A DNA stretch of 64,000 nt from Sedimentibacter sp. MB35-C1. GTDB lineage: Bacteria; Bacillota; Clostridia; Tissierellales; Sedimentibacteraceae. The position numbers and the translations under genes are program-made. The stretch covers positions 2,542,001 to 2,606,000 of the forward strand of contig NZ_CP133188.1 of assembly GCF_030913635.1 (NCBI RefSeq), written 5' to 3'. The notes under the pieces are model-generated. The model saw nothing but the letters and a program-made list of their open reading frames with translations, was not told the DNA's origin and did no database searches. Below, one piece after another: positions 6,246-44,695 of this stretch; within the stretch, counting starts at the first letter, position 1, and each line of letters begins with the position of its first letter.

Positions 6246-7550
6246 TTATTTTTCAAATACGGTTTGTTCTGTAACCTCAGTTTCCAAAGCTTTCAATGCT
6301 CTTGCAACCAAATCTCTTCTTATAGCTCTTTCTTCTTCAAGAGTAAGTGCCGGATTTCCAAGAGGATGAGGTATTGCTATAGTAGGTACTATTCTGTTAG
6401 CTCCTACTGTTAGTGATATAGGAACTACGGTACACATATGTACTACAGGAATTCCCGCTCTTTCTATTTCTTTTACCATCGTTGCGCCGCAACGTGTACA
6501 GGTGCCTCAGGTTGATGTTAATATAACTGCATCAACTCCGTCAGCTTTTAGTTCTTGAGCGTACTCAGCTGCAAATGCTTTTGCGTTTTTAACTGCCGTA
6601 CCGTTACCAACTGTTGTATAGAAATATCTGTGAAGGCTGCCTATCTTACCTTCTTTTTCAAATTCTCTTAATATATCAACTGGCAACACTCTGTCTGGAT
6701 CTTGATTAGCATAAACCGGGTCATATCCACCGTGTGCTGTAGCAAATGTTTCTTCGGTTAAGTCCATAACACCCTCAATATCATACTTACCGAATTTTGA
6801 AGCACTTGATGACTCAATATGGTCAGGATTTCCTTTTGGAACAATACCGCCTGATGTAACAAGTGCAACTTTGCATTTTGTTATATCTTTAACAGCCGGA
6901 TTCGGTTCTACTCTGTCAAAGTCGGGCATAGGGAACTCTGTAACATATTCCTTGCCGCTAAGCTTATTAAGAAGCATTTTAACTGCTCTCTTGGATCCTC
7001 TTTCTTTATCGAAAAAGTTAACTCTTATACCGTTTGGCATGTAACCTTCTTCAATAGATGCACCTATTTTTTCTTTCTTAGCAAGTTTCAGTGCCAATGG
7101 TGCCATTTTCTTGACAGCATCTCTCATACCTGCAGCAGAATTCTTTGTTGAAACAATATACAGACTGTTTTTAAACATATCTGCACCTGGATTTTCTATA
7201 TACATACCCGTTAGTACAGGGATTCCCAGTTCATCCTTTACAGCCTGAGCAATAGTTCCGCATGCAACTCCATATCTTCCTGCATTGAAAGCCGGCCCTG
7301 CTATAAACAAGTCTGGTTTGTATTTTTTTACCATTTCAATAATATTGTTCTTTGCTTCTTCAAGGTTTTCATTGAAGTATGAGTCTCCGCATACAACAGT
7401 TGCAACTATTTCTGCTTCATCTTTGAATGCTTGCTGGAAAGCTAATCCAGGTCCTACGATGCCTTCTCTTAATTCAGCAGGAATGTGAGCCATTTCTTCT
7501 CCGCCTATATTTGCAAAGAATTGATTTATATAATGAACAACTTTTAGCAT
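6246..7550 (-). CDS. grdB: Glycine reductase protein B, 47-kDa selenoprotein subunit GrdB, in-frame TGA read as selenocysteine
   Basis: GrdB (434 aa with Sec counted) is the glycine-binding selenoprotein subunit of protein B. It appears split at TGA 6507-6509, but the frame reads through as ILTST-Sec-GTCTRCGATMVKEIERAG, the conserved Sec motif, with Sec at residue 348. The start chosen is ATG 7550 (MLKVVHYINQFFANIGGEE), which has AAGGAGGAG at ideal spacing; the longer frame from 7577 would place the ribosome site inside the gene. It is preceded by grdE and followed by a hairpin. A compact hairpin just after the TGA is a good SECIS candidate. Confidence 0.95.
6480..6494 (-). promoter_or_regulatory. 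Candidate bacterial SECIS hairpin in grdB
   Basis: In the mRNA, CGUUGC-GGC-GCAACG forms a perfect 6-bp stem with a GGC apical loop beginning 18 nt after the UGA. A small apical loop with G in its first two positions, 16-37 nt after the UGA, fits the general bacterial SECIS rule. Confidence 0.6.
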
Positions 7551-9344: not shown

Positions 9345-9515
9345 CTGTTACAAACCTGAGAGATTCCTCTTCTCTATATAAGAGTTGCTCCTTCGGTGCT
9401 TACGCTTTTCAGAGTTTTGTCAGTTTGCGGTCCTTTTGCCTGAGATCATCATAAAATATGGCTAATATTTTATTTATTCCTTCGGCGCTGTTAATAACAT
9501 AACAGTCTCTCCCGC
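9342..9515 (-). ncRNA. Tandem glycine riboswitch (gcvT type) controlling grdX-grdE-grdB
   Basis: Two consecutive glycine aptamers on the minus strand. Aptamer 1 (9515-9427) has GCGGGAGAG, the GCCGAAGGA segment and CTCAGGCAAAAGGACCGC. Aptamer 2 (9416-9342) has ACTCTG, AGCACCGAAGGAGCAACTC and CTCTCAGG, closed by CAGAG. A short linker joins them, and a terminator follows. This is the standard cooperative two-aptamer arrangement. P1 of aptamer 2 competes with the terminator, which predicts activation by glycine. The promoter is immediately upstream. Confidence 0.95.
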
Positions 9516-9544
9516 AAACGTCATTCAAATATTTATTTGTTTTA

Positions 9545-41331: not shown

Positions 41332-42408
41332 CTAAATATTTTTGTTATATGACTCCAGATATTCAAAAGCATTCTTTATCATTTCCGGTGTAACTTTGTA
41401 CGGATAATGACGCACGTCTATACCTTTCAATGCCTTTTCTATTACACTATCCACATCGTCCATTGAGCAATGTATATCTTCAAGCTTTGTGGGCAAACCT
41501 ATAGTTTTGTTGAAATTAAAAATTCGTTCAAATTCCTTTTCTTGTTTATCAACTATGAGCAAAATTAAAATACCATATGAAACTATTTCACCATGCAAAT
41601 GTCCATATTTCTCAATTTGCGGTATTATTGTAAACCCGTTGTATATTGCATGTGCAAGGCCTGTTGTTATATCTATGCTAACAAGATTTGAAACAAAACC
41701 TGTTGATATAATAACACCAAGTATTATTTCTTCCAATTCACTAGATACCCTATTATTTTTACAATCATCCAAGGCTTTAATTCCATATTTTACAAAGGGT
41801 TTACTGCACATATTTGCCACGTACACACCCATCGCCTGTGAATGTTTCAGTTCATCTCCTCTGCTGGATACAGAACTTTCATAATATTTCGCCATGGAAT
41901 CGCCTATTCCTGCCCAAAGATATTTATCAGACGCCTGCGCTATTATTTCGCTGTCGATAAATATGTGAGTTGCCGGAATAGTTGAAAATGAATATTCTCT
42001 CAATGATCCGTCTGGATGATATAATATACCAAGGCTAGTACATGCAGCACATGTAGATGCTATAGTAGGAAACGTAAAGAATTTCCTGTTAGTCCTTTGA
42101 GCCAGCACCTTACATGTATCCATTGCTTTGCCTCCCCCAACAGCGAAAATCATGTTTGCCTCAATCACTTCGGGTATGGAATTCAATCTTTCGATGTTTT
42201 CCACCGAAGCTTCTCCTCCGTATGGGAAAAAGCCTGTGATTTCAAGCTCACTTCCTTTTACAGACTCCTGAATTTTATTTTTAGCGGCATTTATAGCTCT
42301 TTCTCCCCCTATAACAACCGCCTTTTTTCCGAATGGGCTGCATATTTTTACTACTTCCTTATAAGCATCAGGTCCTATTGTGTAACCTGGAAATAATTGT
42401 GTATTCAT
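41332..42408 (-). CDS. Iron-containing alcohol/glycerol dehydrogenase family protein
   Basis: A 358-aa dehydrogenase of the GldA/iron-alcohol dehydrogenase group. The NAD(P) motif is IFAVGGGKAMDTCK near residue 90. Metal ligands are in WAGIGDSMAKYYE (Asp), TTGLAHAIYNG (His) and KYGHLHGEIVSYG (His). Length and the FPTIASTCAACTS segment suit the glycerol dehydrogenase-like branch, but the substrate cannot be read from sequence. It is 30 bp downstream of the T-box-controlled permease, so it is probably co-transcribed. Confidence 0.85.
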   Translation of the reverse strand: MNTQLFPGYTIGPDAYKEVVKICSPFGKKAVVIGGERAINAAKNKIQESVKGSELEITGFFPYGGEASVENIERLNSIPEVIEANMIFAVGGGKAMDTCKVLAQRTNRKFFTFPTIASTCAACTSLGILYHPDGSLREYSFSTIPATHIFIDSEIIAQASDKYLWAGIGDSMAKYYESSVSSRGDELKHSQAMGVYVANMCSKPFVKYGIKALDDCKNNRVSSELEEIILGVIISTGFVSNLVSIDITTGLAHAIYNGFTIIPQIEKYGHLHGEIVSYGILILLIVDKQEKEFERIFNFNKTIGLPTKLEDIHCSMDDVDSVIEKALKGIDVRHYPYKVTPEMIKNAFEYLESYNKNI

Positions 42409-42442: not shown

Positions 42443-43642
42443 CTAACATTCTGTTTTTTCGGCGAATCCGTTGTATGGTTCAGTTAATATGTCAGCTTTA
42501 TCACAGCTTTGTTCCTTTATGAATTTTCTATTCTTGTAAACACCTATTGTCAAGAACGGAACTATTATAATTGCAATACCCAGATATCCCATATAGCCGT
42601 AGCCATATTTTATAATCTTATCTAATCCTACCATTGAAATCCCCATAGATAAAAGCATAATAAACCCTGATACTATAATTCTTCTTCCTATAACATTCTT
42701 TATGCCTTCAAGCATTTTAGACTTGTCAAATTTATCAACAAAGCCATAAATTGTTGTCACGCCTGTGGAAATAAAGCAAAGGAACAAGCATATATTGTAT
42801 GCCCAAAATACATATGATTTACCCAGCTGCTTAGCTATATACAGAGCCGGCAGAGTCATTTCTCCGGCCTGAGTAAACTCCGCATACCACCCTAACAGCA
42901 TTATTACCGACAACACCAGCGCAATTGAATTAATTATAAATGAAATCATCATGGAACGAGATACCGCCTTAGGACTTTTTAATGCCCTGCCGCAAGATAT
43001 CATCGTAGGTATAACCACCGATTGAAAGCCAGCATAAGTAAATGCTTTTAGGATTCCTGTTCCAATGTTCGCAGTCCCGGATTTAACAGCAAATATATTT
43101 GATACTTCAGGCATTCTTGCATTGATTCCCAGTATGAATATTACAGCGCACGAAGTTAATATTCCTATTGACATTACAGTTGATGCTTTAGCAACCAGCG
43201 TTGCTCCAAAAATAGTCAATAAAAGCAGAATTCCTCCTACTGTCAAAACAGCATACACATATTGAATACCATATGTTTTGTTAAGTAACGATGCCGCTCC
43301 TGCAATAACAGCACCCACCGCACACAAAACCATCGTATAAAAGTAAATATCAAACAATATAGAAATTTTATCAAACGGATGGTACAGAGTCTGAAACAGC
43401 TCCTTAGAGCTGGTAAGCCCCCTGGTATTGTACATAATAATGCATTCTCGAATAGTCAAGGTCAGTATTGCCATAGCAATCACTGCCATAAAAGGTGCAA
43501 ACCACCCATACTGCACATAATACTGTGTTGCCTGATTTCCTGTAGCAAAGCCTCCTCCGGCATGCGAACTAAACAGGACACATGCAACTGAAATTACTCC
43601 TGCCATACTCATGTTTCTTGTTACTTGTCTTTGTTTTTCCAT
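42443..43642 (-). CDS. YkvI-type amino-acid permease-like membrane protein, T-box controlled
   Basis: A 399-aa membrane protein with 10-11 hydrophobic segments. The start has a broken first helix, VLFSSHAGGGFATGNQATQYY, a glycine-rich pattern found in LeuT-fold amino-acid transporters. It resembles the YkvI family, whose substrates are unproven. A T-box leader upstream with a probable CUA specifier implies regulation by uncharged tRNA-Leu, which suggests leucine or a related branched-chain compound. Confidence 0.8.
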   Translation of the reverse strand: MEKQRQVTRNMSMAGVISVACVLFSSHAGGGFATGNQATQYYVQYGWFAPFMAVIAMAILTLTIRECIIMYNTRGLTSSKELFQTLYHPFDKISILFDIYFYTMVLCAVGAVIAGAASLLNKTYGIQYVYAVLTVGGILLLLTIFGATLVAKASTVMSIGILTSCAVIFILGINARMPEVSNIFAVKSGTANIGTGILKAFTYAGFQSVVIPTMISCGRALKSPKAVSRSMMISFIINSIALVLSVIMLLGWYAEFTQAGEMTLPALYIAKQLGKSYVFWAYNICLFLCFISTGVTTIYGFVDKFDKSKMLEGIKNVIGRRIIVSGFIMLLSMGISMVGLDKIIKYGYGYMGYLGIAIIIVPFLTIGVYKNRKFIKEQSCDKADILTEPYNGFAEKTEC

Positions 43643-43701: not shown

Positions 43702-44016
43702 GGCAAAAAAAACTCCATCTCTCAGGGTATACTAATCCCTAAGAGACGGAAGACATATATCTTTCGCGGTACCACTCTTATTCATTTCATATGAAATGCA
43801 CTCTCCAGATACGGGTTATTTCTAATCGATATCCTGCCATTTTTAACGATTGGCTTATTCGTACCTACCTACTTAAATTTTCGGAAGATCCGCTCCAAGG
43901 CTAGTTCAGCATCTCGTAGAATATTGTTTTTCACCGGCCAACAACTCTCTGAATTCACTAAAAATGCTTAATACTCCTTATCACAGCGTTTATGTTGCTC
44001 ATTAATTTATGTATTT
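43702..44016 (-). ncRNA. T-box leader, probable leucine (CUA) specifier
   Basis: On the minus strand the conserved T-box element AAGAGTGGTACCGCGAA lies at 43779-43763. Stem I contains AGTA, AGCAT/ATGCT, GAACTAG and CCTTGGAGC; the specifier loop opposite AGTA reads GAA-CUA-G, a leucine codon. A terminator, TCCGTCTCTTAGGG/CCCTGAGAGATGGA (43750-43714) with T8, follows. It should switch on the permease when tRNA-Leu is uncharged. The T-box call is secure; the specifier is inferred by fold. Confidence 0.9.
43705..43750 (-). terminator. T-box leader terminator
   Basis: TCCGTCTCTTAGGG pairs with CCCTGAGAGATGGA with wobble pairs, followed by T8 on the minus strand. The alternative antiterminator uses the T-box element upstream. 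Confidence 0.9.
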
Positions 44017-44022
44017 TTTAGG

Positions 44023-44051
44023 ATTATACACCTGTACAAATTCTTTGTCAA
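44023..44051 (-). promoter_or_regulatory. Consensus promoter of the T-box transcript
   Basis: TTGACA (44051-44046), 17 bp, TATAAT (44028-44023): perfect vegetative promoter. Confidence 0.85.
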
Positions 44052-44203: not shown

Positions 44204-44695
44204 ATGGTAAATTTAAATCCAGATGATCTATATATTGAATTTGTAGATGTTAATGCCACAGAACCCATCATACCCAGACGTTACACTTTAACTCATTCTG
44301 ATTTAACAGGAGAATTGTTTTTAACAATTGGTTTGGAGTTTGCTTATAATAGAATTAACCCTAAAAGAGATGAAGTTATGGGAGAATGGATACAGAATGG
44401 AGAAAGTTATCTCTACTACGTTTATTTATATGTAAACGGCAGGTTCACTACTCCAGAAGTCAAGGCAGTACGCGAAGCCATATTCAGAAATAACCTCCCT
44501 ACAGCTCTAGAAGCCATAAGATACGGCGATAGGAAATTATTTGCCGCTCACCCCGAGCTTGACAACATTCCAATAATAGTATATTTTCTATCCACTGATC
44601 CTAATTTTAACAAAACAGAAAATTGGGGCACATTTTCTGATTACAATATGACTTTTGCCCAAAGATATCGATATAATAAAAAAAGCCCGAAATAA
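44204..44695 (+). CDS. Staygreen family protein
   Basis: A 163-aa protein of the staygreen family. Characteristic segments are IIPRRYTLTHSDLTGELFLTIGLEF, NRINPKRDEVMGEWIQNG and FRNNLPTALEAIRYGDRKLF. In plants the related SGR protein extracts Mg from chlorophyll; in anaerobic bacteria the role is unknown. It has no signal peptide. The stop codon lies in the loop of a terminator shared with the convergent operon. Confidence 0.85.
   Translation: MVNLNPDDLYIEFVDVNATEPIIPRRYTLTHSDLTGELFLTIGLEFAYNRINPKRDEVMGEWIQNGESYLYYVYLYVNGRFTTPEVKAVREAIFRNNLPTALEAIRYGDRKLFAAHPELDNIPIIVYFLSTDPNFNKTENWGTFSDYNMTFAQRYRYNKKSPK

Follow-up and report, generated by a model that had tools for sequence, protein, structure and literature searches.

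A leucine T-box leader before a permease and a dehydrogenase gene

The window, a stretch of 64,000 nucleotides from the genome of Sedimentibacter sp. MB35-C1, carried on its minus strand a T-box leader followed by genes encoding a YkvI-like permease and an iron-type dehydrogenase (Fe-ADH). The features of this locus are as follows.

44023..44051, minus strand: promoter TTGACA-17-TATAAT, 12/12 matches
43739..43993, minus strand: T-box leader, Stem I to antiterminator (RF00230, 135.1 bits)
43902..43904, minus strand: leucine specifier codon CUA, with G next at 43901 (Rfam model columns 92-94)
43765..43775, minus strand: antiterminator motif GUGGUACCGCG, with the U of UGGU facing the tRNA discriminator A
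43705..43752, minus strand: intrinsic terminator hairpin, then U8 (from sequence and folding)
42443..43642, minus strand: YkvI-like permease of 399 aa with a LeuT/APC fold, a proposed importer of 2-hydroxyisocaproate
41332..42408, minus strand: Fe-ADH/GldA-fold dehydrogenase, 358 aa, Cys120 at the position of GldA Asp121

In an Rfam covariance search, minus-strand positions 43739-43993 matched RF00230 over the full length of the model (positions 1-219) at 135.1 bits (E 6.8e-30), above the gathering score of 93 bits. Of 17 promoter-like sites that the promoter scan returned, TTGACA-17-TATAAT ranked top; as 15 such sites are expected from shuffled sequence, only this perfect match carries much meaning. 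The terminator half formed a long stem with a minimum free energy of -38 kcal/mol; shuffled sequence averaged -23.8 (z -4.3), and none of 200 shuffles reached this stability. A simple terminator scan, which found none in the region, missed this hairpin. In the competing antiterminator, UGGU is complementary to the discriminator A73 of tRNA-Leu(UAG). The T-box, terminator, and perfect promoter that the first-pass annotation had read from the letters are therefore all present.

That annotation had also proposed a leucine specifier and an alignment to T-box models as its check. Under the covariance model, CUA sits in the specifier columns (92-94, counted by hand on the printed Rfam alignment) and is followed by a purine (G) and then the helix AAGG/CCUU, with AGUAUUA as the opposite strand of the loop. 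CUA is cognate to the tRNA-Leu with anticodon UAG, one of the tRNA-Leu anticodons (UAA, CAG, GAG, UAG, and CAA) found in the fetched stretches, which cover a part of the tRNA matches. The leucine reading was thus borne out, and the relatives described below use four synonymous leucine codons.

The genome (3.62 Mb, single contig) contained 27 T-box matches, 24 of them over the cut-off. Specifiers agreed with the downstream genes, named by eye from translations, in nearly all nameable cases, leaving aside the three matches below the cut-off (L025-L027): UCC for serS, GCA for alaS, CUC for leuS and leuA, AUC for ileS, ilvA, and ilvC, GUA for valS and ilvB, UUC for pheS, AGA for argG, CCC for proS and proC, ACU for thrS, UAC for tyrS, GGA for glyS, and AUG for metG. 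The exception was L010 (G000:C1:3520772-3521023), where AAC and UGGU precede an aspS-like gene, encoding an AspRS-like protein, though the discriminator of tRNA-Asn is G. The specifier script placed L018 wrongly and failed on L020, L022, L024, L026, and L027; L005, which was read correctly, and L024 scored 19, under the later threshold of 19.5.

Reading the specifier of the window in another register would give AAC (asparagine), as GAAC precedes the variable base in the leucine class and L010 combines AAC with UGGU. Against this, the Rfam columns and the register of specifier, purine, and helix give CUC for the genome's own leuS and leuA, and the discriminators (A in tRNA-Leu, G in tRNA-Asn) favour leucine, even if a U-G pair is possible. 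Additionally, the third codon base is free in the leucine class and the flanking helix covaries (AAGG/CCUU, GAGG/CCUC, GCGG/CCGC, GTGG/CCAC, and GCAG/CTGC), and a free third base next to a helix changing in step on both strands supports the register. The asparagine reading was rejected on the Rfam columns and the leuS/leuA comparison, and we regard it as hardly credible.

Several other elements were observed. Two proS genes lie behind identical T-boxes (L015, G000:C1:7751-7951, and L016, G000:C1:3611345-3611545), the proS frame downstream of L015 being split into two ORFs, and L017 and L019 form a tandem proline T-box pair before proC. Within the window, the Rfam search placed a SECIS_4 element at 6469-6506 and a glycine riboswitch at 9418-9524, both on the minus strand. 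A member of the Staygreen family (PF12638, 180 bits), known from chlorophyll breakdown in plants, is encoded at 44204-44695 on the plus strand, divergently from the T-box operon.

Relatives of the permease and their gene neighbourhoods

A gap of 96 nt separates the T-box from the start of the permease gene downstream, and the dehydrogenase gene follows 34 nt after the permease gene on the same strand. No significant Pfam or NCBIfam match was obtained for the permease, and the name YkvI, which we take to correspond to COG3949, is the label given by the first-pass annotation. A Pfam scan of 26 permeases yielded no convincing family (best match SSF at 1.4e-4; 4 of 26 matching at E up to 1). The fold search returned only LeuT/APC-type folds, which alone do not reveal the substrate.

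The nearest named relative in the search was a Sedimentibacter MAG with a permease 96% identical. All eight same-genus orthologous loci scanned (L059-L066) carried a T-box that passed the gathering score and had CUA as its specifier; among 12 further loci in the same scan, L067 had an isoleucine T-box (AUC), L075 a phenylalanine T-box (UUC), and 10 had none. A wider set comprised 80 loci with 86 permease copies, the best 80 of 116 loci chosen by permease similarity in named genomes. A T-box motif lay within 700 nt upstream of 61 of these 86 copies, with the specifiers CUG (23), CUA (15), CUC (15), and CUU (2), making 55 leucine codons, and AUC (6, isoleucine), and with no other amino acid; 42 were read by script and 19 by eye (18 Leu, 1 Ile) by a reader who knew the hypothesis. 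The motif was absent from 25 copies, and none of the 14 of these loci scanned with Rfam had a T-box at the gathering score; a second copy in L199, with its motif 801 nt upstream, was scored as absent. The C. difficile relatives (L142-L145) had neither a T-box motif nor a linked dehydrogenase.

Of 56 permease copies with a T-box, 46 had an Fe-ADH homologue encoded no more than 3.5 kb downstream, against 5 of 22 lacking a T-box (Fisher p = 1.5e-6, 8 contig-end copies left out); counted once per locus, so that no dehydrogenase in a tandem locus serves two permease copies, the figures were 43 of 52 loci with and 3 of 20 without a T-box (p = 1.6e-7, 8 contig-end loci left out), both p values being too good, as the loci are related and not independent. 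A branched-chain aminotransferase (cluster c7) directly followed the permease at 7 loci in 6 genomes (L122 and L202 belong to the same organism), including some Peptoniphilus and Anaerococcus. The order permease, aminotransferase, Fe-ADH was found at six of the seven (5 genomes), the seventh stopping at a contig edge, and the three aminotransferases run against HMMs, out of seven, all scored over both curated cut-offs. Computation thus shows a T-box with a leucine specifier, a tRNA to match, and a gene order that is conserved among relatives, and regulation by leucine is well supported by sequence.

The same genome also encodes a ykvI paralogue (G000:C1:2978517-2979614) under a phenylalanine T-box (UUC).

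Operon under the Phe T-box, lying beyond the window: G000:C1:2975166-2979659 (L259:1667-6160)

The paralogue is followed by genes for EtfB, EtfA, and a GlcD-type FAD enzyme (TIGR00387, 323 bits, below the equivalog cut-off of 568), a kind of 2-hydroxyacid dehydrogenase unrelated to the GldA-fold enzyme. This order and UUC were found at all six same-genus loci with a permease at least 68% identical and enough flank (L259, L261-L265); L266 (permease 75%) stood outside the count, as its flank ends too early. No EtfBA or GlcD neighbours were found at L267, L268, and L269, with permeases 31-41% identical to the phenylalanine type, and in L270 (another family, 31%) EtfA, permease, and GlcD-type genes are adjacent. 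The operon probably serves phenyllactate salvage. A reading frame for a D-2-hydroxyacid dehydrogenase was also observed upstream of it on the same strand (L259:7221-7937).

Among T-box-free relatives, the permease adjoins LarA, over its cut-off, in L176 and a D-2-hydroxyacid dehydrogenase homologue (BLAST, 35%) in L167. According to passages of PMC11770544, 2-hydroxyisocaproate is one of the compounds that enzymes of the LarA family can racemise.

These neighbourhoods bear on the cargo of the permease. Leucine itself might be transported, with the dehydrogenase as an accessory, e.g., for internally made 2-oxoisocaproate or hydroxyisocaproate. T-boxes before leucine transporters are already known, with YvbW, LIVCS, and NSS given in excerpts of PMC2494555 as ordinary leucine transporters under leucine T-boxes; the LeuT/APC fold would also fit such transport. 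In addition, nine permease copies with a leucine T-box had no linked Fe-ADH; their genomes held an unlinked Cys-type homologue in five cases, with no T-box detected upstream of any of the five, and none in four. Against leucine as cargo stand the dehydrogenase linked to 46 of 56 T-box copies, the phenylalanine-type paralogue paired with another type of hydroxyacid dehydrogenase, and the LarA and D-2-hydroxyacid dehydrogenase genes that adjoin relatives lacking a T-box; we consider this cargo unlikely, if still a serious candidate.

In Peptostreptococcus (L147, L165, L170, and L171), genes assigned by cluster to had, from the reductive fermentation of leucine, lie next to the permease homologue, HadB of L170 scoring over its cut-off and HadC of L171 reaching 562 against 700. 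This adjacency would suit the reverse direction, with reduction of 2-oxoisocaproate by the dehydrogenase and export of the resulting hydroxy acid through the permease. Such a role is very improbable in our view: a T-box induces when leucine is scarce, a state in which a cell should not discard its carbon, and the had-linked loci had no T-box at the gathering score (L147 and L165) or no T-box motif (L170 and L171). Furthermore, EtfAB with a GlcD-type enzyme, as encoded beside the paralogue, drives lactate oxidation.

Identity and relatives of the dehydrogenase

The dehydrogenase is an Fe-ADH by Pfam. Its best NCBIfam match was glycerol dehydrogenase (NF006941/PRK09423) at 226.7 bits, below the cut-off of 336, and NF007880/PRK10586, which we take to be the model of E. 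coli YbdH/HcxA, gave 175 bits against an equivalog cut-off of 429. The predicted structure (pLDDT 93) matched GldA structures, with TM scores of 0.87-0.90 for the top five PDB entries. The Asp at 121 (E. coli GldA numbering) of glycerol dehydrogenases is replaced by Cys. Among 83 aligned proteins (81 of the rows differ, and those of L105-L109 are BLAST segments rather than whole genes), this column held Cys in 76, including the window protein and E. coli HcxA, and Asp in 7, and the three positions that we assumed to be metal ligands were kept in all 83. The seven Asp proteins, E. coli GldA included, formed one clade (100/100), and the Cys/Asp split may represent a single evolutionary event. 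A plain glycerol dehydrogenase was rejected on the score (226.7 < 336) and on Cys in place of Asp121.

The fold matches included PDB 6csj, a double mutant of Bacillus coagulans polyol dehydrogenase that acquired D-lactate dehydrogenase activity and presumably carries D121N and F245S. A mutated glycerol dehydrogenase is also described as working as a D-lactate dehydrogenase, with the residue unnamed, in part of PMC4222570. The window enzyme is probably a 2-hydroxyisocaproate dehydrogenase, judging by its active-site residue and neighbours. The first-pass annotation saw no obvious connection between this gene and leucine; the aminotransferase in related operons and the active-site Cys, which suggest a 2-hydroxyacid dehydrogenase, speak against that view.

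In the dehydrogenase tree, leucine labels clustered (8 changes against a shuffled mean of 26.3), as did tryptophan labels (2 against 4.9), and isoleucine labels did not (6 against 6.8; 72 of 500 shuffles as low). E. coli HcxA, 31% identical to the window enzyme, lies on a long branch of unsure placement. Its gene adjoins the methionine transaminase gene ybdL, and part of PMC3228920 lists ybdH as a MetJ regulon member with methionine salvage genes, its function being called unknown.

Further neighbours were found beside other homologues. A tryptophan T-box (UGG) and TrpX-like ABC genes lie beside the Fe-ADH homologue in L119, L120, L229, L231, and L239 (TrpX model scores of 259-275 in three of the five, below the equivalog cut-off of 390), and TrpX-like genes follow the homologue in L113, L114, L115, and L117, where no T-box was detected. 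In L111 the homologue stands alone under an isoleucine T-box. A class I aminotransferase adjoins the homologue at five loci (three by Pfam, two by BLAST only), LarC in L238 (equivalog, over cut-off), and a TRAP transporter in L121 (Pfam). Homologues with neighbours of no evident link include L112, L116, L118, L230, L234, L235, and L242.

Two further rows were observed. In Fusobacteriaceae (L140:3440-8623), two permeases, an M20 amidohydrolase, and an Fe-ADH occur without a T-box, one possibility being that processing starts from an N-acyl form. In L160:7636-10050 (also L146 and L150), the dehydrogenase is followed by an MbcS-like acyl-CoA ligase (429 bits, below the cut-off of 850) that also carries HTH and cupin domains; in L160 this gene has its own T-box, read by eye as isoleucine (AUC). 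The ligase might perhaps serve 2-methylbutyrate assimilation to isoleucine.

The dehydrogenase could also be a passenger under leucine control whose substrate is some alcohol or polyol with no relation to leucine. The Fe-ADH/GldA fold, glycerol dehydrogenase as the best, sub-threshold NCBIfam match, and the aldose epimerase gene next to the homologue in L235 would agree with this. Cys at the Asp121 position and the recurrent aminotransferase, T-box, and hydroxyacid-enzyme neighbours argue against it, making such a role quite improbable.

Proposed hydroxy-acid salvage and known systems

The recurrent partners are 2-hydroxyacid enzymes of unrelated families and aminotransferases, for which import, oxidation, and transamination provide the best explanation. 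Since the neighbours and the active-site residue suggest a 2-hydroxyacid dehydrogenase, the cargo of the permease may be 2-hydroxyisocaproate, the 2-hydroxy analogue of leucine and a Stickland fermentation product, rather than leucine, and control by starvation suggests the oxidative direction. We therefore favour, as a reasonably probable account, a route switched on by starvation in which 2-hydroxyisocaproate is taken up and oxidised to the keto acid, from which transamination yields leucine. The leucine-specific transcriptional T-box would sense uncharged tRNA-Leu(UAG), whose binding would form the antiterminator, so that in leucine starvation the two-gene operon would be read through and permease and dehydrogenase would be made. 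The permease would take up 2-hydroxyisocaproate, the GldA-fold dehydrogenase would convert it with NAD(P)+ to 2-oxoisocaproate, and a branched-chain aminotransferase encoded outside the window operon would complete the route to leucine. We infer co-transcription, substrate, direction, and salvage role, as well as transport and catalysis, from sequence.

More broadly, and with about equal weight for and against, clostridial YkvI-like permeases could be 2-hydroxyacid importers tied by leucine, isoleucine, and phenylalanine T-boxes to 2-hydroxyacid dehydrogenases, with isoleucine and tryptophan T-boxes tying related dehydrogenases. At least two unrelated enzyme types (GldA-fold Cys and GlcD/EtfAB) would then belong to a starvation-controlled programme in which hydroxy acids released by neighbouring Stickland fermenters and lactic bacteria are turned back into branched-chain and aromatic amino acids. 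In this case, excreted 2-hydroxyisocaproate, phenyllactate, and indolelactate would be shared amino-acid precursors in anaerobic communities, T-box specifiers could be used to assign such enzymes, one amino acid after another, and both poorly known protein families would gain a function. A permease family without a matching model and look-alikes of glycerol or iron-type alcohol dehydrogenases are thereby turned into testable hypotheses with named substrates.

A search for 'T-box' with 'YkvI' gave no literature matches. Excerpts of PMC2494555 leave the YkvI-like family unnamed, with 'COG3949' and 'dehydrogenase' occurring 0 times; the C. difficile T-box table, as excerpted from PMC11477304, has no permease/dehydrogenase pair of this kind, and passages of PMC3766115 make no mention of one. 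Among the matches listed for T-boxes, hydroxy acids, HcxA, LarA, and GldA mutants, titles and abstract openings report no T-box-run hydroxy-acid salvage operon, from which we do not claim its absence from print.

Leucine-class T-boxes (RF00230) such as that of B. subtilis yvbW likewise are complete and canonical, with a leucine specifier before a transporter gene; here, by contrast, the transporter belongs to another family, a dehydrogenase gene follows, and the proposed cargo is the hydroxy analogue rather than leucine. The dehydrogenase shares with GldA its fold (TM 0.87-0.90) and metal-ligand positions, and differs in Cys for Asp121 and in that no glycerol genes were recognised alongside it. 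E. coli HcxA (b0599, formerly YbdH), MetJ-repressed together with the methionine transaminase YbdL, resembles our system in belonging to the GldA-fold family with Cys where GldA has Asp121, in aminotransferase adjacency, and in amino-acid-responsive control; the two differ in sequence (31% identity, long branch), in regulator (RNA versus protein repressor), and in amino acid (leucine versus methionine), and the comparison is meant to suggest that they may work alike. Finally, like the lactate dehydrogenase/EtfAB complex LctD-EtfBA of acetogens, the phenylalanine T-box operon encodes EtfB, EtfA, and a GlcD-type FAD enzyme, here beside a permease; unlike it, the operon is T-box controlled, its GlcD score lies below the equivalog cut-off, and its presumed substrate is phenyllactate rather than lactate.
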